From positions 124,001 to 188,000 of the forward strand of contig JACOUO010000008.1 in assembly GCA_016177845.1 (NCBI GenBank): 64,000 nucleotides of DNA, written 5' to 3'. The DNA is from Deltaproteobacteria bacterium (GTDB lineage: Bacteria > Desulfobacterota > GWC2-55-46). The stretch's first letter is position 1. Each line of letters opens with the position of its first letter. This document shows, piece after piece, positions 36,951-59,108 of the stretch. Made by a program: the position numbers and the translations under genes. The notes beneath the pieces were generated by a model that saw only the letters and a program-made list of their open reading frames with translations, was not told where the DNA came from and ran no database searches.

Positions 36951-37685
36951 CTAAAGGGAATTCAGCAGCCCTTTTTTGAAAAGAATAGTCTTTAATTTCA
37001 AATACACCAGAAACGCTGACATCTGCATGATTGTCTTAACAGGCTTGAGCGCGCTTTGACCTGCTGCCCTTGAATAATGAGACACCCCGACTTCACTGAA
37101 GTTATGGCCAAGGTTCATAATCTTTATCATAATCTCGGAAGGCGCCTGATAGCCGGTTGATTCAATGTCGATTGCCTTTAAAACATCACTCCTGTAGAGC
37201 CTGAACGCGCAGTTTATATCCTTGAATTTTGCGCCGAACAGGACTTTTATCATTCCGTTCAGGCCTTTGTTGGCGAAAACCCTGAATACAGTATCACTTT
37301 TCTTTTTCCGGTAGCCTGTCACAACGGCAGTGCCATTGGCAGAAGGGCTTAAAAAATATGGGAGCTCCTTAATGTCAAACTGCCCGTCTGAATCTATCGT
37401 AACGATGTAGTCGCCGCTCGAGGCGTTTATTGCGCTTTTCAATGCCGCTCCGTAACCCCTGTTTACAGGGTGGTGCACGATTTTAAGGTTGGGAAATTCA
37501 GTGCACATATTTTGTAGCACCTCAAAAGTCCTGTCCCTGCTTCCGTCATTTGTAACGATTATTTCCCCACTGCAATTGATGGATGCAAGCGCTTCGCTAC
37601 AGGCCCTTACTGTTTTTTCAATATTGGCCTCTTCATTATATGCAGGCATGACTATGGAAAATGAGACTTCCTCAAGACCGTTCAT
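36951..37685 (-). CDS. GT2 glycosyltransferase, polyprenyl-phosphate mannosyltransferase-like
   Basis: 244 residues from ATG 37685 (AGGTG just upstream); a GTG two codons earlier is an alternative. FSIVMPAYNEEANIEKTV, TNDGSRDRTF and TIDSDGQFD give the DPM1/GT2 family with DXD-type metal binding. The C-terminal region has hydrophobic segments but no full membrane domain. Such enzymes make polyprenyl-phosphate sugars, the donors used by GT-C enzymes; the two adjacent large membrane proteins would be natural users. It overlaps the upstream gene by 14 bases. Confidence 0.78.
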   Translation of the reverse strand: MNGLEEVSFSIVMPAYNEEANIEKTVRACSEALASINCSGEIIVTNDGSRDRTFEVLQNMCTEFPNLKIVHHPVNRGYGAALKSAINASSGDYIVTIDSDGQFDIKELPYFLSPSANGTAVVTGYRKKKSDTVFRVFANKGLNGMIKVLFGAKFKDINCAFRLYRSDVLKAIDIESTGYQAPSEIMIKIMNLGHNFSEVGVSHYSRAAGQSALKPVKTIMQMSAFLVYLKLKTILFKKGLLNSL

Positions 37686-40600
37686 TTTCACCTATTTTTT
37701 TCTTCCTGGGATTTCTGACACCGAAATAAATAATCCCTGTTGCTGAAAAAAGAGAAGCCATTTTCGCGAAGTCATAGGCCTTTTGAGGGGCATATTCGAG
37801 ATTAAACTGCGCCTTTCCCTTGTCGTTAAAAACGAAACCGTTAGCAAATCCATTCACTCTGAGAGGCTCATATTTTTTACCGTTTATGTAGAATGCCCAA
37901 TCCCTGTCAAACGAATCATTGAAGACCATTTTTGAATCTTTTTGAGCAATTGCCCTTACCTGGTATTTCGCAGGATTCAATTTCTGAAACCAGACATCAG
38001 GCTTTGCGGCGTTTGAAAACACGCCCTTTTTCCTGACTAGTACTAAAGATTCATTCTCTATACCTTTTGCAAATCTGAATACATGGTCGCCGCGCTTCAT
38101 CAATTTAGCGCCGCTCCATTTATTGCACTCTTTGCTGGTTGGAAGGTAGATGCCTCCGACTGCAAGATCACCTTTATTGCCTATGCATTTTTTCTCAACA
38201 AGTCCGAAATTGCCTTTTAAGGTTGGAATCTGCAGATGGTTATACACGGCACTTTTTTCAAAAATTATTTCTACCCTTTTAAGCTTATGCGTGGCCGAAG
38301 AGGCAAACTTTCTTTTTACAAGCTCATTCAGATTGAAGCTGCCCTTAACCTCTTTCAGGTAGTTTTTTTCAATCTTTAAAGATTCTTCTTTAGTTCCGTC
38401 AAGGCCGATTTTAAGAATCACCTCAGATGCCTTTGCAAAATCCGGGAAAGCAAACTCGCTGTATTGCCCTATATCGACTGAGGGCAGCTCAATAGACGCT
38501 CTGGCTGCAACTTGACCCGGTTTTTCGAATTTCCATTTCGATCCTGCAAAACTATCTGCTTCTTCTCTTTTATACTGAACAGGAGTTAAAGAACTTGCCT
38601 CATAATCAACACTCCCCTTCAGGCTTAGAGAACCTGACCTGTCTTTGAAATTATCAAAAATATAAATCACCTCAAAATCTGCAGAGCTCATCTTGTCAAG
38701 CAGTGCCGCTTTTAGATTTTTGTATTCTGAAGCAGGTACAATCAGCAGGTCGCCAGTCGAGGCAAGAGTTGAATTTCTAAGCGCCACAGTATGTCTGCCT
38801 TTTTCCAGAAAGATAATCCCCTTGTTTGCCCAATTAAGCCCGTCTTCTGTCTCTTTCCCGATTATCTCAATGGAATCCAGAAAAATATTGCCCTTGCTGT
38901 TCTTTGCGAAAACAATGTATTCTCCCGAAGCATTCAGACTAAGTGAACCTTTGTCTTGATATGTGTACCCATAGCTATTTGCAAGAAGCTCACAGACAGT
39001 ATCAATATGATTGCTGTTAAAAAAGATCACCCCTTCGGCATTATTTAAAAATTTATTTGCCATTTCCGGATTTTGAGCATCCTTAGCCATCAGGAGAAAA
39101 GGCGTGTCCAGATGCCCCGTAAGGCTCAGCGCCGGAAAAGCGTTTTCATCTCCGTTTAACAGATAGGCTTTTGAAGCCCCTGTTAATCTTTGCTCATACT
39201 GATGATTTTCATACAACATAAGAGGCCCTATCTTTTTTTTTAAGCTAAAACCGTTTTTGTCCAGCAAAGACCCCGCATATTCATTGAAGTTGTATTCAGG
39301 CATTACCCATCTGTTAAAATCATCATGCAAAAGGACATAGCGCACATTGTAGAGCCCTAAGACCTTCCCAACATCACCGTATTTCCAATTCCAGAAGACT
39401 TTATTCAATGCTTCGACAGGGCGTTGATAGCGGATATAAACAGTGCCGCCGGGCCTGGATACAACCTTTGGAGCAGTAAGCAGTTCAAATGTAGGGTCCG
39501 GGCCGTTGTATCCCCATTTGGTATTTGCATCGTATACTTCGTAGGGAAAATATATCTTGGAATAATCTTGCTCAGACCTAAGCCACTCCTCAGCTTCAGT
39601 ATAATAAGGCGGTATCTTTTGATAGACTCCCGGTTCTCTGGCTGAACCTTTTTCCCGGAGATGGGAGCCTGTAAATACAGGCCAGGCATACAGGCTCGTA
39701 GTGAATAAGAGGCTGAATATAAAGAAACCTGCTAATATCTTCAAAACCACACGGGGCCGCAGTATCCATGCATCAGGCGATTTTTTACTTTCGTCAGCTT
39801 TAGAAGCCAGCATCCCGATTGAATACGCAAGAAGAGGCACAATAGCAAACAGCAGCAGGCTTGAGAACACCCTGTATGGCGCCCTGAAAAGAAAAAAACC
39901 CGGAATATTAAAGTAAAGCCACTCAAATAATTTTCCGAGCGGCTCATGGTTGCCTTTAGCCATGAAGATTGCAAATATGCTTAGTCCTGAGAAAAAGAAG
40001 ATATTCCTGTCATTTCTTGCCCTGCAAACGCTTATAAACGCTAACATTGGCAGAAGTATTCCAATCAATATGAGCAGAGGACTTTGATAAATAGACGGAT
40101 TAAACAACTCATCTGACGGCATATCAAACCAGAGATCAAGCCTTTCATTACGGAACACATTAAGGATCGAAGTGCCGCGGCTGTAGTAGCTTAAGATATC
40201 GAGATTATAAAAACCTTCCTGCACAAGGTCTTTTGAAGTCAGACCGAAATCAGTCAGGTAAATCAAATTAGGCACTATCCACCAGAGATTTACGAATGCG
40301 CAGACTACTGCTGTCTTGAACGAAAAAGACAAAATATGAAATAGCCGTTCCCGTGCAGAGACAGCCGCATGGAAAAGAATGAAGCCTGCCGTAACCATAA
40401 GAAGGGCAACAAAATCCGCAGGGTGTCCCTTTGTGGCAGCTATCGGGAAACTCAGGAGCGCGATAAGCATCGTGTATCTCCATTGTTGCTCCGGCCTTGT
40501 AAACGCCCTGTAAAGAAGCCCGATAAGAATTGGCAGCAAACCATATGTAAGAAGAGCCATCATATTGCCCCTGCCAAAATGCGCCATCACAGGATAGCTG

Positions 40601-41001
40601 AATGTATATAGGACCACACCGATAAGGGCTATGGCGCGGCAGTTTGGTTTTTCAGAAAAAATGGATTTGAGCATAAAGTACATCGAGAAGCCCTGGAGAG
40701 AAAATATTGAGACAAAAACTATTTTTTCGGCAGTATAGTAATCCAGGCCAATGATCACAGGTAAAGAGAACAGCAGATAGTACGGCATTGAAGATATCTC
40801 GTGAGATATGTCGTATCCTCCGGCCATCTTGTCGCTCCAGAGATAAAAACTTTTCTTAAGCGTATCAACAGGATTAAGATAGACGGCAAAATCAAAACCC
40901 GCTATCGCGTTGTAACCATCCTTAAACCAAAGCAAAGGCACAAGCCCGATAACGAATATCAGCGCAATGTCGAGATATGTATTTGAGTTAATCTTCTTCA
41001 T
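37672..41001 (-). CDS. Large membrane protein, YfhO/PTPS-related GT-C-like
   Basis: 1109 residues, paralogous in layout to the gene at 23841: about 12 membrane helices in the first 450 residues, an extracytoplasmic C-terminal half with several beta-sandwich-like segments, and a C-terminal helix. An early FDFAVYLNPVDTLKKSF stretch carries acidic residues. Start ATG 41001 shares an ATGA overlap with the preceding GT39-like gene, indicating translational coupling. Probably transfers a sugar from a polyprenyl-phosphate donor outside the membrane. Confidence 0.65.
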   Translation of the reverse strand: MKKINSNTYLDIALIFVIGLVPLLWFKDGYNAIAGFDFAVYLNPVDTLKKSFYLWSDKMAGGYDISHEISSMPYYLLFSLPVIIGLDYYTAEKIVFVSIFSLQGFSMYFMLKSIFSEKPNCRAIALIGVVLYTFSYPVMAHFGRGNMMALLTYGLLPILIGLLYRAFTRPEQQWRYTMLIALLSFPIAATKGHPADFVALLMVTAGFILFHAAVSARERLFHILSFSFKTAVVCAFVNLWWIVPNLIYLTDFGLTSKDLVQEGFYNLDILSYYSRGTSILNVFRNERLDLWFDMPSDELFNPSIYQSPLLILIGILLPMLAFISVCRARNDRNIFFFSGLSIFAIFMAKGNHEPLGKLFEWLYFNIPGFFLFRAPYRVFSSLLLFAIVPLLAYSIGMLASKADESKKSPDAWILRPRVVLKILAGFFIFSLLFTTSLYAWPVFTGSHLREKGSAREPGVYQKIPPYYTEAEEWLRSEQDYSKIYFPYEVYDANTKWGYNGPDPTFELLTAPKVVSRPGGTVYIRYQRPVEALNKVFWNWKYGDVGKVLGLYNVRYVLLHDDFNRWVMPEYNFNEYAGSLLDKNGFSLKKKIGPLMLYENHQYEQRLTGASKAYLLNGDENAFPALSLTGHLDTPFLLMAKDAQNPEMANKFLNNAEGVIFFNSNHIDTVCELLANSYGYTYQDKGSLSLNASGEYIVFAKNSKGNIFLDSIEIIGKETEDGLNWANKGIIFLEKGRHTVALRNSTLASTGDLLIVPASEYKNLKAALLDKMSSADFEVIYIFDNFKDRSGSLSLKGSVDYEASSLTPVQYKREEADSFAGSKWKFEKPGQVAARASIELPSVDIGQYSEFAFPDFAKASEVILKIGLDGTKEESLKIEKNYLKEVKGSFNLNELVKRKFASSATHKLKRVEIIFEKSAVYNHLQIPTLKGNFGLVEKKCIGNKGDLAVGGIYLPTSKECNKWSGAKLMKRGDHVFRFAKGIENESLVLVRKKGVFSNAAKPDVWFQKLNPAKYQVRAIAQKDSKMVFNDSFDRDWAFYINGKKYEPLRVNGFANGFVFNDKGKAQFNLEYAPQKAYDFAKMASLFSATGIIYFGVRNPRKKKIGENERS

Positions 41002-42869
41002 CCAAGCCTGTAAATTTTAATGATTGGGCCGGTATTACTGCCGTCAGGCGCAAATTCTTTAATCAACCGAGCCTTCCGGCTCCGCAGAAGCGGCTCGTAA
41101 AAATCCCGTGCCCTTTTATTGAGGTAGAATAAAAGGCCGAATTTCCCGTCATTGATATAAATATCAGACTGCCTGTTAAAGCTGAGCAGGTCTTCTTTGA
41201 AGAGGTAATTAAACTCACCCTTTTTTTCAGGGTCGTTGTCGAGTAGAAAATTTGTATATCCGTAGCTTGATATGATCAGATAATCCGCTCCCAGCTCCTT
41301 CAACTCTTCAACCGAACGAAAATTAAAAACGCTGTAAAGCTCTCTATAAACTTCTTTTGATGAGGCTGTCTGTTTTGCATTTGAATCCATGCCATCAGGC
41401 CAATTAGGAGCATCTGTCGTGTATATGACCGGAAGCATCTTATATTTTGGCTTGTCTTTTAAAAATTCAGAATACCCGGCCCTGATCCTCTCGGGCACTT
41501 TCTGTTCATAATATTTCAAGGCTTTGGGGTTTAATAGATTGTTAGGTATATCAGAGTAGACTGGAACCGCGAACTCATACCAGTCCATTGCGATTACAGC
41601 GCCCGCAGGCAAATTGATCTCAATCCAGTCTTTTGCATACAGCCTCGTATCAGGGCGTGATTTAAGCGCAGAGGCTTCGATGGAGCCTGCTACCGAAGGC
41701 AAGACAACTGCAATCACAGCGGCAATTGCAAGAGGCCTTCTGATTGCAAGCCGTGACATAAAATCCTCGGTGAACCTTGCAGCTAAAATACAGAGCACCG
41801 GAAATAAAGCGACAAAAAGATGCAGATACCTGATAGCCCAATCCCTCAAAGCGAGCATAAAGACAGCTGCATAGGACAAAAAGATCAAATCCTGCCGTGA
41901 GCGTTTCATTAAAGCGTAGGCTGCCCCGCATATCAGGACAAAACCAAGCACAGTTTCCTGCCTAATCATTTCTTTGGCGAACCAGCCGATAAGGCTCATG
42001 AACCCAGGAGTAAAAGGCTCAACGGAAGATATGCCGAGTTTAGCAACCTGTGAGAGCATCTTGAATTTTTCAAAAGACTCGCTGAATCTAAAGAGCCACG
42101 AAAGGTTGCCAAGCAGCGATACTATTAATAGAACCAAGACACCAACAGCCCTTTTTGAGAAAAATTCATAATTCAAAAGAGAGCCTGATTGCCGCAAGGC
42201 AAAGAACTGGCTAACTGCAAAAGGAACGAGCAGCAGCACTCCCTGAGGTTTCGTGGAGATAGCAAGGCCTGTAAATAAGAAGGCCAGTAAAGTATTCCTG
42301 TTAAATTCTCCGGATGAAAGGACAATGAAATAAAGAGCTGCAGCAGTGAAGAGCGCAAGGAAGATATCAGCTATGGCCCACTGTGAATGCTGTATGAGAT
42401 GAAACATGCCAAGCGAATATGCAAGCCCGATAAAACCTGCCCGTACTGAATAAAGCCGTTTACAGATAAAATAGGTACACAGGCCGAGCGCAGTGCCTCC
42501 GAACGCGCTAAGGAGCCTGCCAAGCAAAAATACCTTTGACTCACCTGTCAGGAACTTGAGCGCAAAATCAGCAGGACTTGAAAACCAGCCCAATAGCCTT
42601 CCCGTGGAAAAGTAGATGCCATTGACAAGCACAAGCATATACTTATGAAGTACCGGATAGGAGAACTCCTCAGGTATTGGGCTCATCCGCTCAGCCATTC
42701 CGAGGGCGTCAAGCACCTGCCTGTTCTCATCAGGGTGAAAGATGAAAGGCAGGCCATACCCTATCCCCCACAGGCGCAGAGCAAGCCCTGCGGCAAGGAT
42801 AGCCGCTATCATAAAGAAACTCGGGAAAGAAAATCCTGACGTAATATTTGAGTTACTGTTGTTTTTCAA
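40998..42869 (-). CDS. GT39/ArnT-like membrane glycosyltransferase
   Basis: 623 residues with about 11 membrane helices and a soluble C-terminal domain. The first extracytoplasmic loop has FIFHPDENRQ, matching the HPDE motif of GT39-type GT-C enzymes with a catalytic acidic pair. The start is TTG 42869, with AGAGG 9 bases upstream and inside the 3' end of the carbamoyltransferase gene. It is coupled by ATGA to the YfhO-like gene. Substrate unknown. Confidence 0.72.
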   Translation of the reverse strand: MKNNSNSNITSGFSFPSFFMIAAILAAGLALRLWGIGYGLPFIFHPDENRQVLDALGMAERMSPIPEEFSYPVLHKYMLVLVNGIYFSTGRLLGWFSSPADFALKFLTGESKVFLLGRLLSAFGGTALGLCTYFICKRLYSVRAGFIGLAYSLGMFHLIQHSQWAIADIFLALFTAAALYFIVLSSGEFNRNTLLAFLFTGLAISTKPQGVLLLVPFAVSQFFALRQSGSLLNYEFFSKRAVGVLVLLIVSLLGNLSWLFRFSESFEKFKMLSQVAKLGISSVEPFTPGFMSLIGWFAKEMIRQETVLGFVLICGAAYALMKRSRQDLIFLSYAAVFMLALRDWAIRYLHLFVALFPVLCILAARFTEDFMSRLAIRRPLAIAAVIAVVLPSVAGSIEASALKSRPDTRLYAKDWIEINLPAGAVIAMDWYEFAVPVYSDIPNNLLNPKALKYYEQKVPERIRAGYSEFLKDKPKYKMLPVIYTTDAPNWPDGMDSNAKQTASSKEVYRELYSVFNFRSVEELKELGADYLIISSYGYTNFLLDNDPEKKGEFNYLFKEDLLSFNRQSDIYINDGKFGLLFYLNKRARDFYEPLLRSRKARLIKEFAPDGSNTGPIIKIYRLG

Positions 42870-44604
42870 CTATAAAATCCTCTATGGCCAGCACATCTAT
42901 CCTTGTTGCAAGAAAACTCTTTATAGCATCCTGAGGCGATGAGACTACCGGCTCTCCCTTAAGGTTAAAAGAGGTGTTGAGTAAAAGCGGTATGCCTGTT
43001 ATTTTTTTAAACTCTTCTATCAGCCTGCGATATTTAGGATTTGCACTTTTATCTACTGTCTGGACCCTCGCAGTACCATCAACATGCGTAATTGCGGGTA
43101 CCTGCTGCGCCCGTTCGCTTCTCACATCTACTGCCAGCAGCATGTAAGGCGAAGGGAACCCGTTAAGATTGAAAAAAGTCTTTGCGTCTTCCTCAAGGAC
43201 AGACGGGGCGAAAGGGCGGAAGTGCTCCCTGTGCTTTACCCTGCTGTTGATAAAATCCTTCATGTCAGGCCGCCTCGGGTCAGCAAGAATGCTTCTGTTT
43301 CCCAACGCCCTCGGCCCGAATTCCATCTTTCCCTGAAACCATCCTATTACTTTTCCGCTCGCAATATGATTGGCTATGTGCGGAGTGATATCGTCATGGC
43401 GGACATATTTCAGATTTGCGGAATCGAGCGCGGACCTTACATCTTTATTAGAGTATTCAGTGCCCAGGGCCGCTGAATGGATGGCGTGCTTTTTGGGCAT
43501 TACCAGCTGATGATGATAGAGATGCAGCGCGCTGCCCAGTGACAAGCCCCCGTCTCCGGCATTGGGCTGGACAAAGACTCTTTTGAAAGGTGTATTTGCT
43601 GTCACCTTTCCGTTCATTACGCAATTGAGCGCAACCCCGCCTGAAAGGCAAAGGTCATCCCCGCCGGTTTCATTGTGAAGTAACTTTAAAAGATGGAATA
43701 CGGTCTCCTCAAGCATAAGCTGTAGAGATGCTGCGATATCCATGTGCTTTTGAGTGTAATCAGAGCCCGGCATTCTCGGAGGCCCGAAAAGCGAGTGAAA
43801 CTTTTTTGAAAGCCAGTCCTGATAGATAAAAAAAGACGCGGTAGTCGGATCGCCCCAATTGTCTATGAGCACCGGAAGATGAAAGGTGAAATAGTCCATA
43901 TCCATCTTAAAGCCCTCAGGCGTGAGTTTGACTATCTGCCTGAATTCATCCATGTACTTTGGTTTTCCAAATGAGGCCAGGGCCATTACTTTTCCTTCAG
44001 CCCCGAGTTCATGGAACCCGAGATGCTGCGTCACGGAGAAGTAAAGCATGCCGAGAGAATTCGGCCAGTATGTCTGTCCAAGCCTTCTAATGCTTGACCC
44101 GTCGCCGTATGAGAACGCGCAGGTTACGAAATCGCCTGAGCCGTCCATTGTAAGTATCGAGGCCTTTGTAAACGGAGAAGTGTAATATGAGCTTGCCGCA
44201 TGGGCATTATGGTGCTCCACCCTCTTTACCTTTGATGCTATCTTTTTCGGATCACCGCCAACTCTTTCAGCGAGGTCGTCAATGACATTCAACGGCCTGA
44301 GGATCCTCTGCCTCATGTAATTATGAAAATATCTCGGCCATGCCTTTACTGGAAATGTGTTCACGGCAAAAGCGAATTTCCTCCAGAGATTTACCTTGAA
44401 ATCGTTTGCTACTGAAATGTAGTCAACATCATCAAGCGTTATCTTGGCTTGCTCAAGGCAATGCTTTATCGCAAGCTCAGGGAAACCGGGTGAGTGCTTT
44501 ATTCTGTTAAGACGCTCTTCATCAATTGCGGATACAATTTCACCATCTACTACCAACGCGGCTGAAGCATCAGGGTGATATGAAGAAATCCCGAGGATAA
44601 TCAT
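42853..44604 (-). CDS. Carbamoyltransferase, NodU/TobZ/CmcH family
   Basis: 583 residues, usual family length. N-terminal Kae1-like ASKHA domain starts ILGISSYHPDASAALVVDG; metal-binding HHNAH is at His131, His132 and His135; LTMDGSGDF and LSGGVALNC follow. The C-terminal YrdC-like part contains FGPRALGNRSILADPR and PLLLNTSFNLKGEP. It transfers a carbamoyl group from carbamoyl phosphate via ATP to a sugar hydroxyl. In this cluster it probably decorates the glycan or its precursor. It overlaps the GT39 gene by 17 bases. Confidence 0.9.
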   Translation of the reverse strand: MIILGISSYHPDASAALVVDGEIVSAIDEERLNRIKHSPGFPELAIKHCLEQAKITLDDVDYISVANDFKVNLWRKFAFAVNTFPVKAWPRYFHNYMRQRILRPLNVIDDLAERVGGDPKKIASKVKRVEHHNAHAASSYYTSPFTKASILTMDGSGDFVTCAFSYGDGSSIRRLGQTYWPNSLGMLYFSVTQHLGFHELGAEGKVMALASFGKPKYMDEFRQIVKLTPEGFKMDMDYFTFHLPVLIDNWGDPTTASFFIYQDWLSKKFHSLFGPPRMPGSDYTQKHMDIAASLQLMLEETVFHLLKLLHNETGGDDLCLSGGVALNCVMNGKVTANTPFKRVFVQPNAGDGGLSLGSALHLYHHQLVMPKKHAIHSAALGTEYSNKDVRSALDSANLKYVRHDDITPHIANHIASGKVIGWFQGKMEFGPRALGNRSILADPRRPDMKDFINSRVKHREHFRPFAPSVLEEDAKTFFNLNGFPSPYMLLAVDVRSERAQQVPAITHVDGTARVQTVDKSANPKYRRLIEEFKKITGIPLLLNTSFNLKGEPVVSSPQDAIKSFLATRIDVLAIEDFIVEKQQ

Positions 44605-44631
44605 TCATACTCTCCTATGTATGGCTATTTT

Positions 44632-45627
44632 CTACACAGCGCCCTTTGCAATCCTCAACATGGTGTCCCTTCCTTTTGGCGTCGCTAAAATAATGTAGGT
44701 GTAAACAAATGTCTGCAGGAAACAAAGCAGCGGATGATAAAACCAGAAGATATTCCTATCCCTTATGCTCAAATAAACAGCATGGCTCCCTGATAAGATC
44801 GGATTAGTAGAATAAATGAGCCAGAGGATAAGCCTTGCCCTGAAGTTATCAACAAAAACCCAATTGGTATTTCTTGTGTCAAGCTTATCCAGGAAATGCT
44901 GTGAAAAATTTCTTTTCCATTTACCGACCCAGTCATTTACCTTTCCGACATGGTGGTGATAAGTAATCAGGTCCATGATATACGCAACTTTGTTGTTGCC
45001 CTGTTCTATCATCTGCTGAAACGCGTCATTATCACCAAGATAGCCGTGCTGTGCCCATATAGGCGAGATCAGCTCCCTTTTCAGCACCAAACCATTTGCG
45101 CCCCATACAAGCGGCTTATGCGGGTCTACCTTGAAGATAAAAGCGCTCCCTCTAATCCTTGTCGCAGCATCGTTAAGATAAGAGCTGATATTTTTATTCA
45201 TGAAAAATGTCATAGGGTCGCTCTGAATAAGTTCAAAGTATTTATTGATAGGCGGGTCGTTCAAACCTGATTTCAAAGGCCCCCATACGGCAGAGCACTC
45301 ATGGTCCTCGCTGAACGGCCTTGCGGCTTTTGTAAGCCAATCCTTTGAATGAAGCTCATTATCAGCCGCAAAAATCACTACAAGATCGCCATGCGCATGT
45401 TTTATACCGACCTGCAGGCCGTACTCTGCCAACTTTTTAGGATTTGGAAAAACCTTTGGCTCAAACTGCCGCGCAGTATCAATGGTTGAATCAGTGCAGC
45501 CGCCATCAAGCAATATGACTTCTACCTTATCCTGAGGATAGTCCTGGGCCCTTATGGATGCCAGACATGTCCTGATATGCATCTGCGCGTTGAAGACGGG
45601 TATTATGAATGAGAATGTCGGCTGCAT
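44632..45627 (-). CDS. GT2 glycosyltransferase
   Basis: 331 residues. FSFIIPVFNAQMHIRTCL at the N-terminus, LLDGGCTDSTID, and VIFAADNE in place of a classic DXD near residue 88; WGANGLVLKRE and GDNDAF later. A hydrophobic C-terminal segment (residues about 295-315) may attach it to the membrane. It is 6 bases from the DegT gene and is cotranscribed with the lipoyl/E1 group, so it may use the amino sugar made there. Acceptor unknown. Confidence 0.8.
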   Translation of the reverse strand: MQPTFSFIIPVFNAQMHIRTCLASIRAQDYPQDKVEVILLDGGCTDSTIDTARQFEPKVFPNPKKLAEYGLQVGIKHAHGDLVVIFAADNELHSKDWLTKAARPFSEDHECSAVWGPLKSGLNDPPINKYFELIQSDPMTFFMNKNISSYLNDAATRIRGSAFIFKVDPHKPLVWGANGLVLKRELISPIWAQHGYLGDNDAFQQMIEQGNNKVAYIMDLITYHHHVGKVNDWVGKWKRNFSQHFLDKLDTRNTNWVFVDNFRARLILWLIYSTNPILSGSHAVYLSIRDRNIFWFYHPLLCFLQTFVYTYIILATPKGRDTMLRIAKGAV

Positions 45628-45633
45628 TTATGA

Positions 45634-46809
45634 TTACCTGCCGTAAAATTCTTTTATGGTTTGGGCGACTTGCCTTATCTGGTCAAACCTTAGCTCCGGG
45701 AACATCGGAAGTGAAATTATCTCATCGGCATAATTCTCAGTTATTGGAAAATCGCCCCGCCTGTATCCCAATTCTTTAAATGCTTCCTGCAAGTGGTTAG
45801 GTATGGGATAATGAATGCCCGCCGAGATGCCTTTTTCAGAGAGGAAATCCTTTAACGCATCCCTCTCTTCTGCCCTGACAACAAAAAGATGAAAGACATG
45901 CGACTGCTCATCATCAGGCAAACTTGGCAGTTTCACCTCTGGGATACCGCTTAGGAACTCGCAATATCTCTTGGCGTGATTGGCCCTCATCAGGTTCCAT
46001 TTATCCAGAAATCTAAGCTTCACTGATAGAACTGCAGCCTGCATTGTATCAAGCCTGCTGTTATACCCTTTAGAGATGTGATGATATTTGGCTGTCTGGC
46101 CATAGTCCCTTAACATCTTTATTCTTTCTGAAAGTTCTACATTATTTGTCGTCACCGCGCCTCCGTCACCGAAAGCGCCCAGATTCTTTCCCGGATAAAA
46201 GCTGAACGCGGCAATGTCTCCGATAGACCCCGTCCTCTTCTTTGTGCCATTTTTTGAGTTATATACGGCCCCGTGAGCCTGGCAGGAATCTTCGACAATA
46301 AACAGGTTATGCCTTTTCGCTATCTCAGAGATTCCGTCCATATCAGCAGGAAGACCATAGAGGTGCACCGGCATTATTGCCTTTGTCCTTTTGGTTATCG
46401 CCTGCTCAATTTTTTTTATATCGATATTGTATGTACGCGGGTCAATATCTACGAGCACAGGTTTCGCCCCTGTGTATGATATTGCAAGGACTGTAGCTAT
46501 GAATGTATTTGCCTGGGTGATTACTTCATCCCCTTCTCCGAGACCCAATGCCCTGAGTGAGAGGTGAAGCGCCTCTGTGCCGGAGGCAACCCCTGCCGCG
46601 CATTGCACCCCGCAATAATCAGCGAATTCTCTTTCGAATTTTTTGACCTTTTCCCCAAGTATGAAATCGCATGAGCCAAGCACATCTTTTATGCCTGATT
46701 CAACCTCTTTAGATATCTCTGTCAATTGCGCCTTAAGATCTACGAACGGGACTTTGCCGGTTGCCGCACCTTCGATTTTTGCTTGCATTAATCTGGGATT
46801 TATTGCCAT
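45634..46809 (-). CDS. DegT/DnrJ/EryC1-type sugar aminotransferase (WbpE/WlbC-like)
   Basis: 391 residues from ATG 46809, which has GGAGG 5 bases upstream; a start eight codons earlier would overlap the E1 beta stop. PLP enzyme: [10 protein letters not shown] at the N-terminus, [34 protein letters not shown], and [16 protein letters not shown] with the PLP lysine. It transaminates a keto sugar nucleotide with glutamate. Directly downstream of E1 beta and near a Gfo/Idh dehydrogenase and an N-acyltransferase, it fits the second step of a 3-keto, 3-amino, 3-N-acyl route like WlbA-WlbC-WlbB or WbpB-WbpE-WbpD. Confidence 0.85.
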
Positions 46810-46826
46810 AACAACCTCCGATTGAC

Positions 46827-47810
46827 TCACCATGAAAGTGATTTTTTTACTCCCTCTATAATTGAGCCCTTGCTTGGCAGCACGAATCTTTCAGCCGTAA
46901 GTGAGGCTGGTATCGGCACATCAGCCTTTCCAACCCTTACGATTCGCCCGTCAATATATTGAAGACAATTCTCTATGACCTGACAAGCCACCTCAGCCCC
47001 AACTCCTCCGAATATACTTCCCTCTTCCACAGTTACGAGCCTTCCTGTCTTACTCACGGATTCTATTACAGTTTCAATATCCAGAGGCTTAATGCTCCGC
47101 AGATCAATAAGCTCAGCATCAATCCCGTCCGCCTCAAGGTCTGCCAGGGCTTCCTTTGCCAAGGCAACTCCGTATGAATGGCTGACTATCGTCACATCAC
47201 CGCCTTCTTTTATTACGCGCGCCTTGCCAAGCGGCACCTGCTTGCCGCTTTGAAGCTCAGCTTCCTCTTCCAGGTTATACAAAAGCTTATGCTCAACGAA
47301 AATCACCGGGTTATTGTCATATACTGCCGAAAGGAAGCACCCGTACGCATCTTCCACACTGCTTGGAGCGACTATTTTTACTCCCGGTATGCTCATGAAA
47401 AGATTTTCCATTGCCTTTGAATGGCTCGGCCCATAGCCTCTGTAACCGCCCGCAGGCGTTCTCACCACTATGGGGCAGGCTATCTGACCGCCGTACATGT
47501 AGTGAATATTTGCCGCGTGATTTATTATTTGGTCCATTGCAAGCGTCATGAAATCCATGAACATGATCTCAGTGATCACCCTATACCCTGTCATTGATAG
47601 GCCGACAGCAACCCCTGTGAAGCTGCCTTCTGAAATCGGGGTGGATATGACCCTTGTCGGATACTTTTTATAGAGGTCGGCTGATACTCCGAATGCGCCT
47701 CCATAAGCTGAGATGTCTTCTCCGAGGAATACAGTTTTCTCATCGCTTCCTAGCGCGTAGTCGAGCGCCTTATATATTGCCTTGCGGTAAGAGATCTTCT
47801 CTTTGCGCAT
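46827..47810 (-). CDS. 2-oxoacid dehydrogenase E1 component, beta subunit
   Basis: 327 residues from ATG 47810. The open frame extends to 47876, but the shorter start matches other E1 beta N-termini ([16 protein letters not shown]), gives the usual length, and has AAGGAG just before it. Even so it overlaps E1 alpha by 41 bases. Motifs: [46 protein letters not shown] and [15 protein letters not shown], then the C-terminal transketolase domain. With E1 alpha it forms an alpha2beta2 TPP enzyme that decarboxylates a 2-oxoacid and reductively acylates a lipoyl group. Found within glycan genes, not with lpd or a normal E2. Confidence 0.9.
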
Positions 47811-48741
47811 ATGCTCCTTCCAGTGCTTCTTCAACTCCGGGGTCTTCCCCTGCAACCGCAACTTCATAAGCGTCATCTACTGATGCCTTTATGGAGCGTT
47901 TGATAACCTCAATCTCACCCTGAGAGATAACCTCAAGGAGCTTAAGCTCCATTTTCGGTAATGGGTCTTTCTGTTTCCACGCGGCTTCCTCTTCTCTTGT
48001 CCTGTATAATCTTGCGTCACTCTTTGAATGCCCGCAGAACCTGTATGTCTTGGCTTCAATCAAGGCAGGCCCGCCGCCCTGCCGTATTTTCTCAGCTATT
48101 TTTTTCGTATTCTCAAAGACCCTTCCCGCATCCATTCCGTCAATTATCACGGAAGGTATTCCGAAAGACGCTGCCCTCAAAGCCACATCATCGAATTTTG
48201 AGATATCAGAAAACCTCGTTGACATGGCATACATATTGTTCTCGCACACAAAGAGGATTGGAAGATTCCAGATGGATGCCATATTGAGCGATTCATGAAA
48301 GGTGCCCTGATTCGATGCGCCCTCACCGAAGAAGCAGACCGCTATCCTGTCTTCGCCCGATAGTTTGATGGAAAGCGCGGCTCCCGCAGCAATTGGCAGC
48401 CCCCCTCCTGTAATACCGTTTGTGCCGAGAAAGTTGAGCTCCATTACGCAGAGGTGCTGTGTTCCACCCCTGCCCTTGCAGTAGCCTTCCCGTTTGCCAA
48501 GAAGCTCTGAAAAAATCTTTGTAATGTCCGCGCCTTTGGCAATCAGGTGCCCATGACCTCTATGGGTGCTTACAATGTAATCATCCTGCCGCAGCGCACC
48601 CACTACTCCTACTGCGGTTGCCTCTTGCCCAATGCACAGGTGCGTTGTTCCTCCGAGCAGCCCGCGGGAGAAGAGCCAGTCAACCTTTTCCTCAAAAAAC
48701 CTGATGGTAAGCGCCTTTTTATAAAATTCGAGTATGTCCAT
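47770..48741 (-). CDS. 2-oxoacid dehydrogenase E1 component, alpha subunit
   Basis: 323 residues, full length for PdhA/AcoA-type subunits. TPP site: GEGASNQGTFHESLN to ENN (the GDG-x~27-NN motif, with Glu for the middle Asp); HRGHGHLIAKG and KGRGGTQH upstream; a YRFCGHSKSD phosphorylation-loop-like segment later. With E1 beta it should decarboxylate pyruvate or another 2-oxoacid. Its partner E2 appears to be the lipoyl-acyltransferase fusion 18 bases upstream. It overlaps E1 beta. The 2-oxoacid cannot be told from sequence alone. Confidence 0.9.
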   Translation of the reverse strand: MDILEFYKKALTIRFFEEKVDWLFSRGLLGGTTHLCIGQEATAVGVVGALRQDDYIVSTHRGHGHLIAKGADITKIFSELLGKREGYCKGRGGTQHLCVMELNFLGTNGITGGGLPIAAGAALSIKLSGEDRIAVCFFGEGASNQGTFHESLNMASIWNLPILFVCENNMYAMSTRFSDISKFDDVALRAASFGIPSVIIDGMDAGRVFENTKKIAEKIRQGGGPALIEAKTYRFCGHSKSDARLYRTREEEAAWKQKDPLPKMELKLLEVISQGEIEVIKRSIKASVDDAYEVAVAGEDPGVEEALEGAYAQREDLLPQGNI

Positions 48742-48759
48742 TTATATTCCGTATATTTT

Positions 48760-49905
48760 TTATATTCCTCTAAAGCTCTTACCGATTATCTTTGCAGGGT
48801 TTCCGCTAACTACAACATCATCGGGGAAATCGCACATAACGGCTGAGCCCGGCGTTATGACCACATTTTTTCCGATCGTAACCTGCGAGTTTATGGAAGC
48901 CCCCACGCCTACAAGCACATTTCCCTCAAGCCTTACTATTCCTGATAAAGAACACCCCGGTGAAAGATGCGAATGGTCTCCTATGTGGCAGTCATGACTC
49001 ACAACTGCACCTGTATCGATAATGACTCCGCTGCCTACAAATGTGTCCGGCCCAAGGATACTGCCTGCCTCGACAAAAGCCCCGCTTGAGATAGTAACCC
49101 CGTCAGAGACAATCGCCCTTTTGTCTACAAGCGGCATCAACTCAATAAAAGGGGCCGCGCTTTGGATCTTCTCGATCAATTTTCTTCTGTACTCTGAGTG
49201 AAGAGAGATCACTATACTGTCCACCTCGCCCTTTGAGGCAAACTCCAAAAAATCCATCCAGCTGCCGAGGACCTTAAGCCCGAGCATTTCTTTATCCTTC
49301 ACAGCCCTGTTATCGTCGAACAGCCCGATAAGCTCATAACTGCCATAGAACTTAAGAAGCTCCTTTGCCTGCTTTGCCCCGAGCCCCGCGCCGTAGATAG
49401 CTACCTTTTTGCGGTTCAGGAATTCCTTAACAACCTTTTCATCAACGATGTCCGCCCCCGATGCAGCAGATATTTCAGCTATATCCAGTTTTAATTCAGA
49501 GCAAAGCCGCTTTGCCGCAGGCGTAGCCGCAACCTGCTTCCTGTGCGGTTCATTTTGTTTTTTTACGGTAGAGTTGAACAACTCCTCCCTTTTCTGCTCG
49601 TGATATCTCTTTTCCTTTTTCCGGGGCGCTGAGACCTTTTTTACATGTGTATCAATATCATCGTGCAAAGCCTCAGATAGTATTGCGACAGGCTCAGTGA
49701 ACTTTGCTTCATCCCCTGCCTTTCGAAATATCTTTCGCAGAAATCCGTCTGCCTCTGACTCAACTTCGAAGATTGCCTTTGAAGTCTCTACAAGCAGGAG
49801 CACATCGCCTTTTTTAATCCTGTCGCCTTCGCGGCTGCGCCATTCAACGATTTTACCGTCCTCTATGTTTGTGCCAAGTTTCGGCAGTATCACTTCATGT
49901 ATCAT
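48760..49905 (-). CDS. Lipoyl-PSBD-NeuD/PglD acyltransferase fusion (E2-like sugar N-acyltransferase)
   Basis: 381 residues with a most unusual order. Residues 1-77: lipoyl domain of E2 type, VETSKA with lipoylation Lys43. Residues 78-126: charged linker. Residues 127-163: peripheral-subunit-binding domain (TPAAKRLCSELKLDI to VVKEF), which in E2 proteins docks E1 or E3. Residues 166-240: Rossmann-type nucleotide-sugar domain (VAIYGAGLGAKQAKEL, LFDDN). Residues 265-375: left-handed beta-helix with SHDC (His304, matching the PglD general base His125) and HSHLSPG (His313). The E2 catalytic CAT domain is missing. E1 alpha and beta follow directly. Known: NeuD/PglD/WbpD enzymes use acetyl-CoA. Inference: here the acyl group arrives on Lys43-lipoate made by E1. 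Confidence 0.9.
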   Translation of the reverse strand: MIHEVILPKLGTNIEDGKIVEWRSREGDRIKKGDVLLLVETSKAIFEVESEADGFLRKIFRKAGDEAKFTEPVAILSEALHDDIDTHVKKVSAPRKKEKRYHEQKREELFNSTVKKQNEPHRKQVAATPAAKRLCSELKLDIAEISAASGADIVDEKVVKEFLNRKKVAIYGAGLGAKQAKELLKFYGSYELIGLFDDNRAVKDKEMLGLKVLGSWMDFLEFASKGEVDSIVISLHSEYRRKLIEKIQSAAPFIELMPLVDKRAIVSDGVTISSGAFVEAGSILGPDTFVGSGVIIDTGAVVSHDCHIGDHSHLSPGCSLSGIVRLEGNVLVGVGASINSQVTIGKNVVITPGSAVMCDFPDDVVVSGNPAKIIGKSFRGI

Positions 49906-49925: not shown

Positions 49926-50954
49926 TTAAGCCCTTGCCCCAAGACGCGCGGTCTGGACAGGCGCGCCCTGCATCTTGAGCGATTCGTCCACAGCAAGCAT
50001 TGCTTTGACAACATCGAGCCCCATAAGCCCGTCTGACACAGGGTTTCTGTTATTGCTGACGCAATCTATGAAATGGAGGCACTGTTCTTTCAAAGGCTCT
50101 GTTGTCTCCACCCTGGGGCTCATGATATCTCCATCGCGCATAAGAAGCCTGAACTCGCCAAAGCTCTCCGCCTCGGTATCTTTGATAACGCCCTTGTCAA
50201 AGACCTTTACGCGTTCAAGGCTGTCGAGGTCATTGAAAGTTATCCGTCTGCGGCTACCCACAGCCACAACCTCTCTTACCTTATAGGGGTCTGCCCAGCT
50301 TACATGAATGTTTGCTATGACATTGTCCGGATAGCCGAGCGTGATAAACCCGACATCCTCCCTGCCGTTCTCAAAGAGTTTTACGCCCGTAGCGCTTACC
50401 CAATCCGGAGTCTTATCGAGCAGAAAATTAAAAATCGAGACATCATGCGGCGCAAGGTCCCATATGGCGTTTACATCATGCCTTATAGGGCCCATATTCG
50501 TGCGGGTTGCGTGAAGGTAGTAAATCTTTCCGAAGGAATCATCCCTTAAAAAGTTCTTCAAAGTCTTGATGCCTGAATTGAATATAAAAGTATGGCCGAC
50601 CATCAGTATTTTTTTCTTTGCTGCTGCAAGCTCTATCATCTCTTCGGTATCTTCTATGGTAAGGGCTACGGGCTTTTCAACAAGCACATGCTTGCCTGCA
50701 AGTAAGCACTTTCTTACCACCTCATAATGTTCAGCGGCAGGAGTAGCGACAACAACAGCATCGATATCAGGACAATTCAGTATCTCATTTATCGTCTTTG
50801 CGGCCTTTACTGTCGGAAACCTGTGCACAAGCCTTTTGAGGCTCAGTTCATCTTTGTCAAATGCCCAGTCAACCCTTGTTGATGTCAGCTCCTCGAATAT
50901 GCGAACATAATTCACGCCCCATCTTCCGCACCCTACTACGGCTACATTCATCAT
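49926..50954 (-). CDS. Gfo/Idh/MocA oxidoreductase, sugar-nucleotide 3-dehydrogenase-like
   Basis: 342 residues from ATG 50954 (GGGAG 7 bases upstream; Met at 50951 also possible). A longer frame to 51020 would run into the radical SAM gene and has no site. NAD(P) loop VAVVGCGRWGVNY, catalytic EKPVALT, and GPIRHDVNAIWDLAPHDVSI, the block seen in WlbA/WbpB-like UDP-GlcNAc(A) 3-dehydrogenases. It should oxidise C3 of a nucleotide sugar so the DegT enzyme can aminate it. 21 bases before the lipoyl fusion gene, same strand. Confidence 0.85.
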   Translation of the reverse strand: MMNVAVVGCGRWGVNYVRIFEELTSTRVDWAFDKDELSLKRLVHRFPTVKAAKTINEILNCPDIDAVVVATPAAEHYEVVRKCLLAGKHVLVEKPVALTIEDTEEMIELAAAKKKILMVGHTFIFNSGIKTLKNFLRDDSFGKIYYLHATRTNMGPIRHDVNAIWDLAPHDVSIFNFLLDKTPDWVSATGVKLFENGREDVGFITLGYPDNVIANIHVSWADPYKVREVVAVGSRRRITFNDLDSLERVKVFDKGVIKDTEAESFGEFRLLMRDGDIMSPRVETTEPLKEQCLHFIDCVSNNRNPVSDGLMGLDVVKAMLAVDESLKMQGAPVQTARLGARA

Positions 50955-50970
50955 TTCAGTTCTCCCGTCT

Positions 50971-52497
50971 TTAATTGCAATTTGCGTTAACGCCGGTTCT
51001 GCCGAACTTCGCTTTGCCATTTTTAAAATCCATCAAATGCCCCATCACCTTTCCGGCTGCCCTGAAAAAATACCTGACATCATCAGTATCCCTTACTGCC
51101 AAAAACCTCCTCAGTAAAAATTCAGGATTGAAGGCTGTGGAATAAATCTTCTGCACAAGATTGGGAACCTCAGATTCCGGATACAAGGTGTTTACTACAG
51201 AGCCCCTCATATCAAATGCGTCCCAGTCCTCTGTTGAAAGAAAACCGTTCTCCCTGCAATATTTGTATAGGGGCGTGCCCGGATATGGGATTACAATGGT
51301 AGCCTGAACTGTCCACGCAAGCCCCTTTCTCAAAAGCCATTTACCGAACTTTATTGTATTTAAAGCCTCTTCGTAGGTTTCCCACGGATAGCCGAACATT
51401 ATTGTTATGTGCGGATAAAGTCCTGCTGCCCTGGCATTCCTGCATGACTCAATGATTTTTTCAACGGTCACTCCCTTATCAAGCCTGTCAAGCGTGCCCT
51501 GATTGGCTGATTCAAGACCAAATAGGAGCAGCCTGAAACCGGCCTTTTTCATCAGCCTGTAATCTTCTTTTTTAACTGCTCCAAAGCGCATGTTGCAGTT
51601 CATCGATAATTTCCGGTTAAGGCCGCTCTCTATCATCCCGTTGCAGAAGTATCTCAGCCACTCCCCTACAGGGAATGTCCCTGTGTCATCCATGATCTCT
51701 TTTATCCCGTAATCAGCAGAGAGCCTGCTTACTTCTTCTAAAAGCGAATCAGGCTTTCTCACCCTGTATTTAGGGTAGAGTGTCGTCCACGAACAAAAAC
51801 TGCATTTTCCCCACCAGCAATCCCGTCCTGCCATTGTGTATGTTCCGGGAAGCTTTTTATAATTTCCGTTCTTCTCACTGTAGAGCCGCCATTTGGTAAG
51901 ATCACGGTCTATAAGCGGCAGGCCGTTTAAATCATGTTCCAGCCTGAACTCACCTGTGCTTTTTATCTCTTCTCCGTCCCTGTACCAGATACCCGGCTCA
52001 AGTTCTGTCCTGCTCCCGTTTACTTCTGAAAGGCTTCTGCAGATATTAAGGAGCAGAAAATCGTAATCTCCGCCTGTAAGCACGAAATCAACCGGGCTTT
52101 TCTCCATCGACTCACGGGGAAATGCCGTCACATGGTCTCCCATAAGGACAACAACAGGATTCCAATCAAATTTTTTAAGTTCTCTTACAATCTCCCAGTG
52201 CCTTTTGATGACAGGCGTTTTTGACTCTATCGCAATGAGAGCGGGCTTCTTATCCTTTATTCCATTCAACCATTCAGCATATGTCTTGCACTCGCTTATG
52301 GCATCATCCCAAATTACTTCAAAGCCGTTTTTCTTAAGCAGGGTGGCGGCAGACGCCGGCACAATGGGGTAGATATAAGTCGGGCTGTTAAACCATTGGA
52401 ACTGCCTGTTCTGAGTAAGCAGGGGCACACCAAAGCCGCTCTCAAGCGGCGGATACGAAATCGATATTTTTTTTATTCTTCTATCCGGCAACTTCAA
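50971..52497 (-). CDS. B12-binding-domain radical SAM protein with CX4CX2C
   Basis: 508 residues. B12-like N-terminal domain about 1-160, then Cys227, Cys232, Cys235 (CWWGKCSFC), which has four rather than three residues in the first gap; LFGLESANQGTLDRLDKG follows. This CWWGKC form is a variation of the canonical radical SAM motif. The start is TTG 52497; a second TTG two codons on (52491) has a better-spaced AGGGG and may be the real one. It overlaps the GT2 gene by 17 bases. Substrate unknown; located just before the Gfo/Idh and lipoyl fusion genes. Confidence 0.82.
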   Translation of the reverse strand: MKLPDRRIKKISISYPPLESGFGVPLLTQNRQFQWFNSPTYIYPIVPASAATLLKKNGFEVIWDDAISECKTYAEWLNGIKDKKPALIAIESKTPVIKRHWEIVRELKKFDWNPVVVLMGDHVTAFPRESMEKSPVDFVLTGGDYDFLLLNICRSLSEVNGSRTELEPGIWYRDGEEIKSTGEFRLEHDLNGLPLIDRDLTKWRLYSEKNGNYKKLPGTYTMAGRDCWWGKCSFCSWTTLYPKYRVRKPDSLLEEVSRLSADYGIKEIMDDTGTFPVGEWLRYFCNGMIESGLNRKLSMNCNMRFGAVKKEDYRLMKKAGFRLLLFGLESANQGTLDRLDKGVTVEKIIESCRNARAAGLYPHITIMFGYPWETYEEALNTIKFGKWLLRKGLAWTVQATIVIPYPGTPLYKYCRENGFLSTEDWDAFDMRGSVVNTLYPESEVPNLVQKIYSTAFNPEFLLRRFLAVRDTDDVRYFFRAAGKVMGHLMDFKNGKAKFGRTGVNANCN

Positions 52498-57983: not shown

Positions 57984-59108
57984 TTACTTCTTAAAAAACT
58001 CTGCGATACAGGAAACAACATACTTTTGTTCAGCTTCACGCAGCTCAGGATAAATAGGCAGGGCCAATGCTTCCTTTGCTGTCTTTTCCGAAACAGGGAA
58101 ATCTCCCTTTTTGTAACCAAGATATTTGAAACACTTCTGAAGGTGAAGCGGCATCGGGTAGTATATCTCTGTTCCTACTCCGACACTTGCGAGATAAGCC
58201 CTCAGCTCATCCCTCTTCTTGACCTTTACTACATACTGGTTGTAAACAGAGCGGTTCCCTTCCTGAATGAAAGGCAAAGTTACTATATCCGAAAGCCCTG
58301 CTTTCTCAAAGAGCCTGTCATATCTCTTGCCATTCTTTATCCTGGCTTCTGTCCAAGCTTCAAGGTACTTTAATTTTACACGAAGAATCGCGGCTTGCAA
58401 CTCATCAAGCCTGCTGTTTGTGCCTACTTCGTCATGAAAATACCTTACTTTGCTGCCGTGCACCCTTAACATCCTGAGCTTTTCGGCTAATTTCGGGTTA
58501 TCTGTCGTAAGCATGCCTCCGTCGCCGAAACACCCGAGGTTCTTTGTGGGATAGAAGGAAAAACATGACATATCCCCAAGCACCCCTGCTTTTTTACCCT
58601 TGTACTCAGCTCCTATTGACTGAGCGGAATCTTCTATTACAAGAAGCTTGTATTTCTTTCCAAGGGCTTTAATCGGGGCCATATCAGCGCACTGGCCGTA
58701 AAGATGAACGGGGATAATGGCCTTTGCGCCCTTTACACCCTTCTTTAGGAGTGCCTCTAAGCTGTTGGGGTCAATGTTGTAGGTCTGAGGATTAATATCA
58801 ACGAAGACGGGGATTGCGCCAAGCCTGGCTATTGCGCCGGCTGTTGCGAAGAAGGTAAACGGTGTTGTGATTACCTTATCACCGGGGCCTACCCCTGCGG
58901 CCATGAGGGCCAAGATGAGAGCGTCTGTTCCTGATGCGACGCCAACCGCAAATTTTGAACCGCAATATTGGGCTATTTCTGTTTCAAGCCCTGCTACATT
59001 CTTTCCTAAAACATAATGCTGTGAATCACAAACCGCCTGAACCTCCCTCAGTACCTCTTTTCTTATCTTTTTGTACTGGGAGGCCAAGTTTAAGAGCTGA
59101 ACCTTCAA
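57984..59108 (-). CDS. DegT/DnrJ/EryC1-type sugar aminotransferase
   Basis: 374 residues. VGVASGTDALILALMAAGVGPGDKV, VIEDSAQSIGAEYKG, FSFYPTKNLGCFGDGG with the PLP lysine, and the C-terminal YYPMPLHLQKCF block identify the family. It converts a keto nucleotide sugar to an amino sugar. Second DegT enzyme in the glycan region and its promoter-proximal gene; it is not clear which dehydratase or dehydrogenase feeds it. The start is TTG 59108, with AGGAG 7 bases upstream. Confidence 0.88.
   Translation of the reverse strand: MKVQLLNLASQYKKIRKEVLREVQAVCDSQHYVLGKNVAGLETEIAQYCGSKFAVGVASGTDALILALMAAGVGPGDKVITTPFTFFATAGAIARLGAIPVFVDINPQTYNIDPNSLEALLKKGVKGAKAIIPVHLYGQCADMAPIKALGKKYKLLVIEDSAQSIGAEYKGKKAGVLGDMSCFSFYPTKNLGCFGDGGMLTTDNPKLAEKLRMLRVHGSKVRYFHDEVGTNSRLDELQAAILRVKLKYLEAWTEARIKNGKRYDRLFEKAGLSDIVTLPFIQEGNRSVYNQYVVKVKKRDELRAYLASVGVGTEIYYPMPLHLQKCFKYLGYKKGDFPVSEKTAKEALALPIYPELREAEQKYVVSCIAEFFKK

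Follow-up and report, generated by a model that had tools for sequence, protein, structure and literature searches.

Within a surface-polysaccharide cluster, a single gene encodes an E2-type lipoyl domain joined, through a linker and a PSBD-like segment, to a nucleotide-sugar N-acyltransferase of the NeuD/PglD family, and this gene is accompanied by its own pair of E1 genes. The combination suggests the direct transfer of a keto-acid-derived acyl group to an amino sugar. It should be noted that E2 lipoyl arms pass their acyl groups to CoA, and that sugar N-acyltransferases draw theirs from CoA or ACP. That the lipoyl arm of the fusion supplies acyl groups to the sugar acyltransferase appears well supported by indirect evidence, i.e., by gene neighborhood, co-occurrence and retained residues. 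The window, by which we mean the whole 64,000-nucleotide stretch of DNA that was analyzed, contains this polysaccharide cluster between about 21.8 and 59.1 kb. The fusion and its neighbors are the following:

42853..44604, minus strand: NodU-type carbamoyltransferase, after the GT2 gene (Pfam; same order in L052)
44632..45627, minus strand: GT2 glycosyltransferase, after the cassette (Pfam; same order in L052 and L053)
45634..46833, minus strand: DegT/DnrJ/EryC1/StrS aminotransferase, presumed maker of the 3-amino sugar acceptor (Pfam DegT_DnrJ_EryC1, 1.1e-119)
46827..47876, minus strand: E1 beta, whose called frame overlaps that of E1 alpha (Transket_pyr, Transketolase_C; NF006667)
47770..48741, minus strand: E1 alpha of a TPP-dependent 2-oxoacid/acetoin-type dehydrogenase, following the fusion after 18 bp (Pfam E1_dh, 1.9e-78)
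48760..49905, minus strand: fusion gene, 381 aa, with a lipoyl domain, a linker, a PSBD-like segment and a NeuD/PglD-family nucleotide-sugar N-acyltransferase (Pfam, NCBIfam, homologues)
49926..51020, minus strand: Gfo/Idh/MocA oxidoreductase, immediately upstream of the fusion and presumed to be a nucleotide-sugar 3-dehydrogenase (Pfam; NF040723; synteny)

Architecture of the fusion protein

The fusion occupies one intact frame of 381 codons, which begins with ATG and is preceded by the ribosome-binding site AGGAGAG; the extent that the first-pass annotation had given for this frame was exact, and the strand is minus. In Pfam, the protein matches Biotin_lipoyl at residues 4-76 (PF00364, 1.6e-15), PglD_N at residues 167-244 (1.3e-6) and Hexapep (8.6e-14). 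The catalytic domain of 2-oxoacid dehydrogenase acyltransferases (PF00198) has no match in any of the four fusions that we identified, and an E2 catalytic domain was likewise not found in the open reading frames scanned around the fusion inside the polysaccharide cluster, in agreement with the earlier claim that this domain is absent. The parts of the protein, all on the minus strand, are as follows:

49678..49896, minus strand: E2-type lipoyl domain, residues 4-76 (Pfam Biotin_lipoyl; PDB entries for the E2 of PDH)
49777..49779, minus strand: Lys43, predicted lipoylation site in VETSKA (invariant in all four fusions)
49579..49614, minus strand: conserved basic linker motif KRYHEQKREEL, residues 98-109 (alignment of the four fusions)
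49417..49533, minus strand: PSBD-like segment, residues 125-163, degenerate and without the GTGxxGR loop (weak E3_binding, PF02817)
48790..49407, minus strand: NeuD/PglD/VioB acyltransferase domain, residues 167-372, a nucleotide-sugar-binding Rossmann part followed by a left-handed beta helix (TIGR03570, structural matches)
48994..48996, minus strand: His304, predicted general base (aligned with PerB H141; by motif with Pcryo_0637 H142 and PglD H125)
48940..48942, minus strand: Gly322, predicted oxyanion hole, 18 residues past the base (spacing of Pcryo_0637 Gly160; invariant in the NeuDs compared)
48850..48855, minus strand: Thr351-Pro352, fusion-specific replacement of a Gly/Ala-x pair before Gly353 (alignment of the fusions with standalone NeuDs)

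The N-terminal part of the fusion matches PDB chains of PDH E2 and of protein X, and the earlier assignment of an E2-type lipoyl domain is borne out by the Pfam match; Lys43, its putative attachment site, lies in VETSKA. Around Lys43, the residues Gly27 (K-16), Glu40 (K-3) and Gly54 (K+11) are invariant in all four fusions; lipoylation studies on the H-protein reportedly show that these three positions and Lys43 itself matter for lipoate attachment. The linker that follows carries the basic motif, in which K99, H102, K105, R106, E108 and L109 are invariant. A helix is predicted over this motif at residues 97-110, with low confidence owing to the low pLDDT of the model there, and KRYHExKREEL is a possible docking helix for E1 or for the beta helix. 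A peripheral-subunit-binding domain had been placed at residues 127-163, and a PSBD-like segment is indeed present there (125-163), with a two-helix pattern at a pLDDT of about 75-85; the segment is, however, degenerate. The E3_binding match to the fusion of the window covers residues 125-151 (5e-4), the corresponding value in L001 is 0.009, none was reported in L052 and L053, and PF02817 stays under its gathering score in all four copies. Because of this degeneration, docking of E1 or E3 through the PSBD-like segment is uncertain.

The C-terminal domain belongs to the NeuD family by every feature tested. NCBIfam NeuD_NnaD (TIGR03570) matches residues 167-372 over the full profile (1-202 of 202) with 163.6 bits versus a cut-off of 160.8; two of the other three fusions are also above the cut-off, and the copy in L053 is just below it, at 155.4. 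This part of the protein matches the PDB entries for Neisseria PglB, PerB, VioB and PglD. When modeled by itself (mean pLDDT 70), the domain has its best matches in 2npo, PglD, PerB, VioB and WeeI, with Z of about 14-15 over 175-202 residues; the rmsd of 11-12 A is probably due to misorientation of the two halves of the model. The full-length AlphaFold model is poor (mean pLDDT 60) and too weak to position the lipoyl arm, and a Foldseek search with it yielded no match under 1e-3.

His304 aligns with the catalytic His141 of PerB, the residue altered in 4eaa and 4eab. This alignment and the full-profile match agree with the first-pass annotation, which had described a nucleotide-sugar Rossmann domain plus a left-handed beta-helix acyltransferase. 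In Pcryo_0637, the general base is His142 (PglD His125), the oxyanion residue is Gly160, i.e., base + 18, Asp40 and Asp41 are located at the uracil and the ribose, and Gln178 (PglD Asn162) is located at the C2'-acetamido group, and a conserved proline of such relatives turns cis upon CoA binding (PMC8040287). Alignment and motif spacing to Pcryo_0637 give the counterparts His304, Gly322, Asp197/Asp198, Gln341 and Pro370, all of which are invariant in the four fusions. The pairing of Gln341 with Gln178 is presumptive and is based on the PglD spacing. His304 and Gly322 are present in all fusions and in all standalone NeuDs compared. One position sets the fusions apart: all four read TPG at 351-353, whereas every standalone NeuD covering this site reads [G/A]-[A/T/M]-G. 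By PglD spacing, T351-P352-G353 presumably corresponds to the Gly172-Gly173-Gly174 stretch of PglD, which probably contacts the pantetheine arm, and we therefore lean toward a location of Thr351-Pro352 near the presumed donor groove.

E1 genes and sugar genes of the cluster

The genomic context, on whose E1 genes the first-pass annotation was silent, provides the fusion with a presumptive partner: E1 alpha and E1 beta genes adjoin it. E1 alpha scores 339.7 bits against TIGR03182, the equivalog of pyruvate dehydrogenase E1 alpha, which is under the cut-off of 393.85, and in alignment with human PDH E1 it keeps the catalytic His in CGHS. E1 beta scores 330 bits against NF006667, above the cut-off, and in the same kind of alignment keeps the TPP-activating catalytic Glu (TPISE) and the His (SHSK). 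Its conserved start is probably Met23, near 47810, judging from comparison with L001 and L053.

Among themselves, the cassette E1 alphas show identities of 64-76%. Compared to the canonical E1 of the same organism, which is encoded in a normal E1a-E1b-E2 operon whose E2 has PF00198, the cassette proteins show identities of about 30-34% (alpha) and 39% (beta). At another location, the genome encodes a dihydrolipoamide dehydrogenase (E3) above its curated cut-off. With E1s from plasmid operons of acetoin/PDH-like kind, the cassette E1 alpha shares 45-50% identity, and no gene that makes a 2-oxo acid accompanies the cassette. Given these relatives, the TIGR03182 score under the cut-off and the missing 2-oxo-acid-making gene, a common metabolite such as pyruvate is a plausible substrate of this E1. 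The genome has yet another E1 alpha (G000 C18:65677-66603), 39% identical to the cassette one; this type is widespread in the order and is separate from the canonical E1 on C5 (L051).

On the sugar side, the best NCBIfam model for the Gfo/Idh/MocA gene is NF040723, UDP-GlcNAc 3-dehydrogenase (174 bits, below the cut-off), and the gene is syntenic in L052 and L053. The DegT aminotransferase is syntenic at all four loci, and its solved relatives include QdtB and WbpE, both of which are C3 aminotransferases. The families of the two genes fit a C3 dehydrogenase and a C3 aminotransferase, and neither gene reaches an equivalog cut-off. As the GT2 and the NodU-type carbamoyltransferase genes (42853-45627) also follow the cassette in L052, carbamoylation may be part of the conserved unit.

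Several other features of the same polysaccharide cluster were observed. It has a second DegT aminotransferase at 57984-59108, 45% identical to that at 45634-46833. There are four B12-binding radical SAM proteins (28131-29579, 31142-32620, 33615-35042 and 50971-52497) and a further radical SAM protein at 26971-28125. Two very large membrane proteins, at 37672-41001 (1109 aa) and 23841-26981 (1046 aa), have weak GT-C / AftD-like or PTPS-related matches.

Conservation and rarity of the fusion

The fusion was found in 4 of 63 genomes of the class, representing four genera and two families, with 59-66% identity over the full length. In the three other genomes, this frame is likewise open, with identities of 66, 62 and 59% from one end to the other, and one of these fusions also turned up independently in a separate contig search. 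The union of the domains is thus conserved in homologues, and a frameshift or an assembly join between two genes, which the first-pass annotation had named as a possible refutation, is excluded: we give practically no weight to such an artefact, as the same in-frame fusion exists in four genomes and nothing was found in favor of an artefact.

The gene order Gfo/Idh, fusion, E1 alpha, E1 beta, DegT is the same at the four loci wherever the contig reaches, and extends to the GT2 and carbamoyltransferase genes in L052 and to the GT2 gene in L053. In the direction of transcription, the fusion is immediately followed by the E1 alpha/beta pair at each of the four loci. Among 48 genomes of the order, the four with the fusion are precisely those with an E1 alpha of the cassette clade (identity of at least 65%), and the remaining matches are near 40%. 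The chance of this co-occurrence would be about 5e-6 if the genomes were independent, a figure that ignores the kinship of these related genomes. The four loci may reflect few independent events.

Searches in five other phyla (about 1,090 genomes), several of which had no positive control, scored the best few candidates of each genome. At the thresholds applied, they revealed no fusion in the phylum of a Gallionella (299 genomes), of a Nitrospirales (296 genomes, with standalone NeuDs only), of a Longimicrobiaceae (289 genomes), of a Saprospiraceae (198 genomes) or of an Omnitrophota (9 genomes). With the same scoring of the best few candidates, two samples from the own phylum, of about 395 and 375 genomes, contained no fusion besides the copy of the window. 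There was no fusion in viral contigs, and no place in plasmids covered 80% of it. These searches indicate that the fusion is probably rare. Among the best few candidates per genome, the closest standalone NeuDs were those of the Nitrospirales phylum, and the standalone NeuDs examined had no adjoining E1 or E2-type lipoyl gene. One match, in G374, spanned residues 100-376 and was rejected as a fusion: it crosses five stop codons, and the open frame is an ordinary NeuD of 231 aa.

Donor of the acyl group

Compared to the NeuD/PglB/VioB family (PglD, PerB, the acetyltransferase domain of Neisseria PglB, VioB and Pcryo_0637), the fusion has the full NeuD_NnaD profile, the general-base His, the oxyanion Gly, the Asp-Asp nucleotide site and the GNPA tail, and differs in its N-terminal lipoyl and PSBD-like arm, in the Thr-Pro pair before Gly353 and in the dedicated E1 genes next to it. 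The known members of this family take acetyl from free acetyl-CoA. With the E2 proteins of PDH, OGDH and BCKDH, the fusion shares an N-terminal lipoyl domain with an ETxKA-type lysine hairpin, a flexible linker, a PSBD-like segment, which is degenerate in the fusion, and E1 alpha/beta genes in the operon; in contrast to them, it resides in a polysaccharide cluster and has a sugar N-acyltransferase instead of PF00198. Lacking the catalytic domain and having a degenerate PSBD, it is not an E2 by membership, yet its mode of action is probably that of an E2 as far as the acyl-lipoyl intermediate. In design, its closest precedent is, by analogy, the AcoC-type E2, e.g., L089 4985-6361, annotated as acetoin dehydrogenase E2 and composed of lipoyl, PSBD and alpha/beta hydrolase domains. 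It likewise combines a non-CAT head with neighboring AcoA/B-like E1 genes, although its head is an alpha/beta hydrolase, whereas that of the fusion is a nucleotide-sugar beta-helix acyltransferase. The functions of the cassette are also those of the WbpB/WbpE/WbpD (WlbA/WlbC/WlbB) pathway for 3-acylamino sugars, namely a Gfo/Idh 3-dehydrogenase, a DegT C3 aminotransferase and a beta-helix N-acyltransferase; WbpD/WlbB draw on acetyl-CoA and, unlike the fusion cassette, lack both a lipoyl arm and an E1. LpxA and LpxD, to whose models the fusion has weak profile matches, are beta-helix acyltransferases that use a protein-tethered (ACP) acyl thioester and thus offer a precedent for the way of working; their carrier is a separate phosphopantetheinyl ACP, whereas the carrier of the fusion is a fused lipoyl domain.

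Taken as a whole, the cassette could be a small machine of the 2-oxoacid dehydrogenase type, in which a nucleotide-sugar N-acyltransferase stands in place of the E2 catalytic domain. The Gfo/Idh enzyme and the DegT aminotransferase would generate a nucleotide sugar with a C3 amine, probably a UDP-HexNAc. E1 alpha/beta would use TPP to decarboxylate a 2-oxo acid, or to cleave an acetoin-like ketone, and, as we infer from conserved residues and linkage, would reductively acylate the lipoyl group on Lys43. The lipoyl domain, on its linker of about 45 residues, would swing to the active site at the subunit interface of a beta-helix trimer, where His304 would deprotonate the sugar amine, the amine would attack the acyl-dihydrolipoyl thioester, and Gly322 would serve as the oxyanion hole. 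The surface polysaccharide would in this way be supplied with an N-acyl sugar nucleotide, and the shared dihydrolipoamide dehydrogenase would re-oxidize the dihydrolipoyl arm. That E1 acylates lipoyl-Lys43 and that the same polypeptide then transfers the acyl group to a nucleotide sugar at its 3-amine is a reading that the sequence comparisons modestly favor. On the stricter proposal, that the N-acyltransferase takes the acyl group directly from its own acyl-dihydrolipoyl-lysine, loaded by the dedicated E1, and makes a sugar amide from a 2-oxo acid without CoA, our expectations are evenly divided. The group delivered in this manner is possibly of the glycolyl, propionyl or branched type, which is not normally available to such sugars as a CoA thioester.

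The first-pass annotation had proposed that the Lys43 arm donates the acyl group, directly or via CoA. The part of this proposal in which the arm feeds the acyltransferase gains support from the E1 pair adjacent to the fusion at all four loci, the perfect co-occurrence of the fusion and the E1 clade among 48 genomes, and the retained catalytic residues. As for the route, the characterized relatives PglD, PerB, VioB and Pcryo_0637 all use acetyl-CoA. The fusions retain the C-terminal GNPA motif with its CoA-responsive proline (PMC8040287 for the role of the proline), so that CoA may still bind and a CoA route is conceivable. In such a relay, lipoyl-Lys43 would give up the acyl group to CoA bound at or close to the beta-helix groove, or the canonical E2 would mediate this step; the NeuD domain would then use the acyl-CoA, and the arm would serve just to raise the local donor concentration. 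The canonical E2 and E3 of the genome are in keeping with this relay, which we consider credible but unlikely, given that the fusion lacks the E2 catalytic domain for shifting the acyl group from lipoyl to CoA, that a dedicated E1 and an arm would be superfluous were acetyl-CoA sufficient, and that the Thr-Pro change affects the presumed pantetheine groove in all four fusions. It is somewhat less probable again that the protein uses free acetyl-CoA in the manner of NeuD and PglD, with the lipoyl-PSBD part and E1 serving for docking or metabolic coupling, or being decorative. The complete NeuD domain, above the family cut-off, and the degenerate PSBD would suit such a protein, but Lys43 and the lipoyl signature are invariant among fusions that are 59-66% identical, the E1 catalytic residues are kept, and the co-occurrence with the dedicated E1 is perfect.

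Beta-helix NeuD proteins are trimeric, similar to the building blocks of E2 cores, and the fusion might be an alternative E2 that mainly supplies a different enzyme in the cluster with an acyl thioester, its beta helix being mainly a trimeric core like the E2 CAT domain. This is quite improbable, because the nucleotide-sugar and catalytic residues are all kept and genes for a C3-amino sugar flank the fusion at every locus. Between direct lipoyl transfer without CoA and the relay through CoA, we lean toward direct transfer, based on the Thr351-Pro352 change, the lack of a domain for acyl transfer from lipoyl to CoA, and the linkage to E1.

The first-pass annotation knew of no characterized enzyme with this architecture, and none was met in a full-text search of openly available papers, which yielded no description of a lipoyl-armed sugar acyltransferase. 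If direct lipoyl donation is true, lipoyl-lysine would be an acyl donor in glycan biosynthesis, a new donor chemistry. The design of the 2-oxoacid dehydrogenases would then be re-targetable by an exchange of its catalytic head, a possibility already hinted at by AcoC, and N-acyl sugars of keto-acid origin would be predicted.
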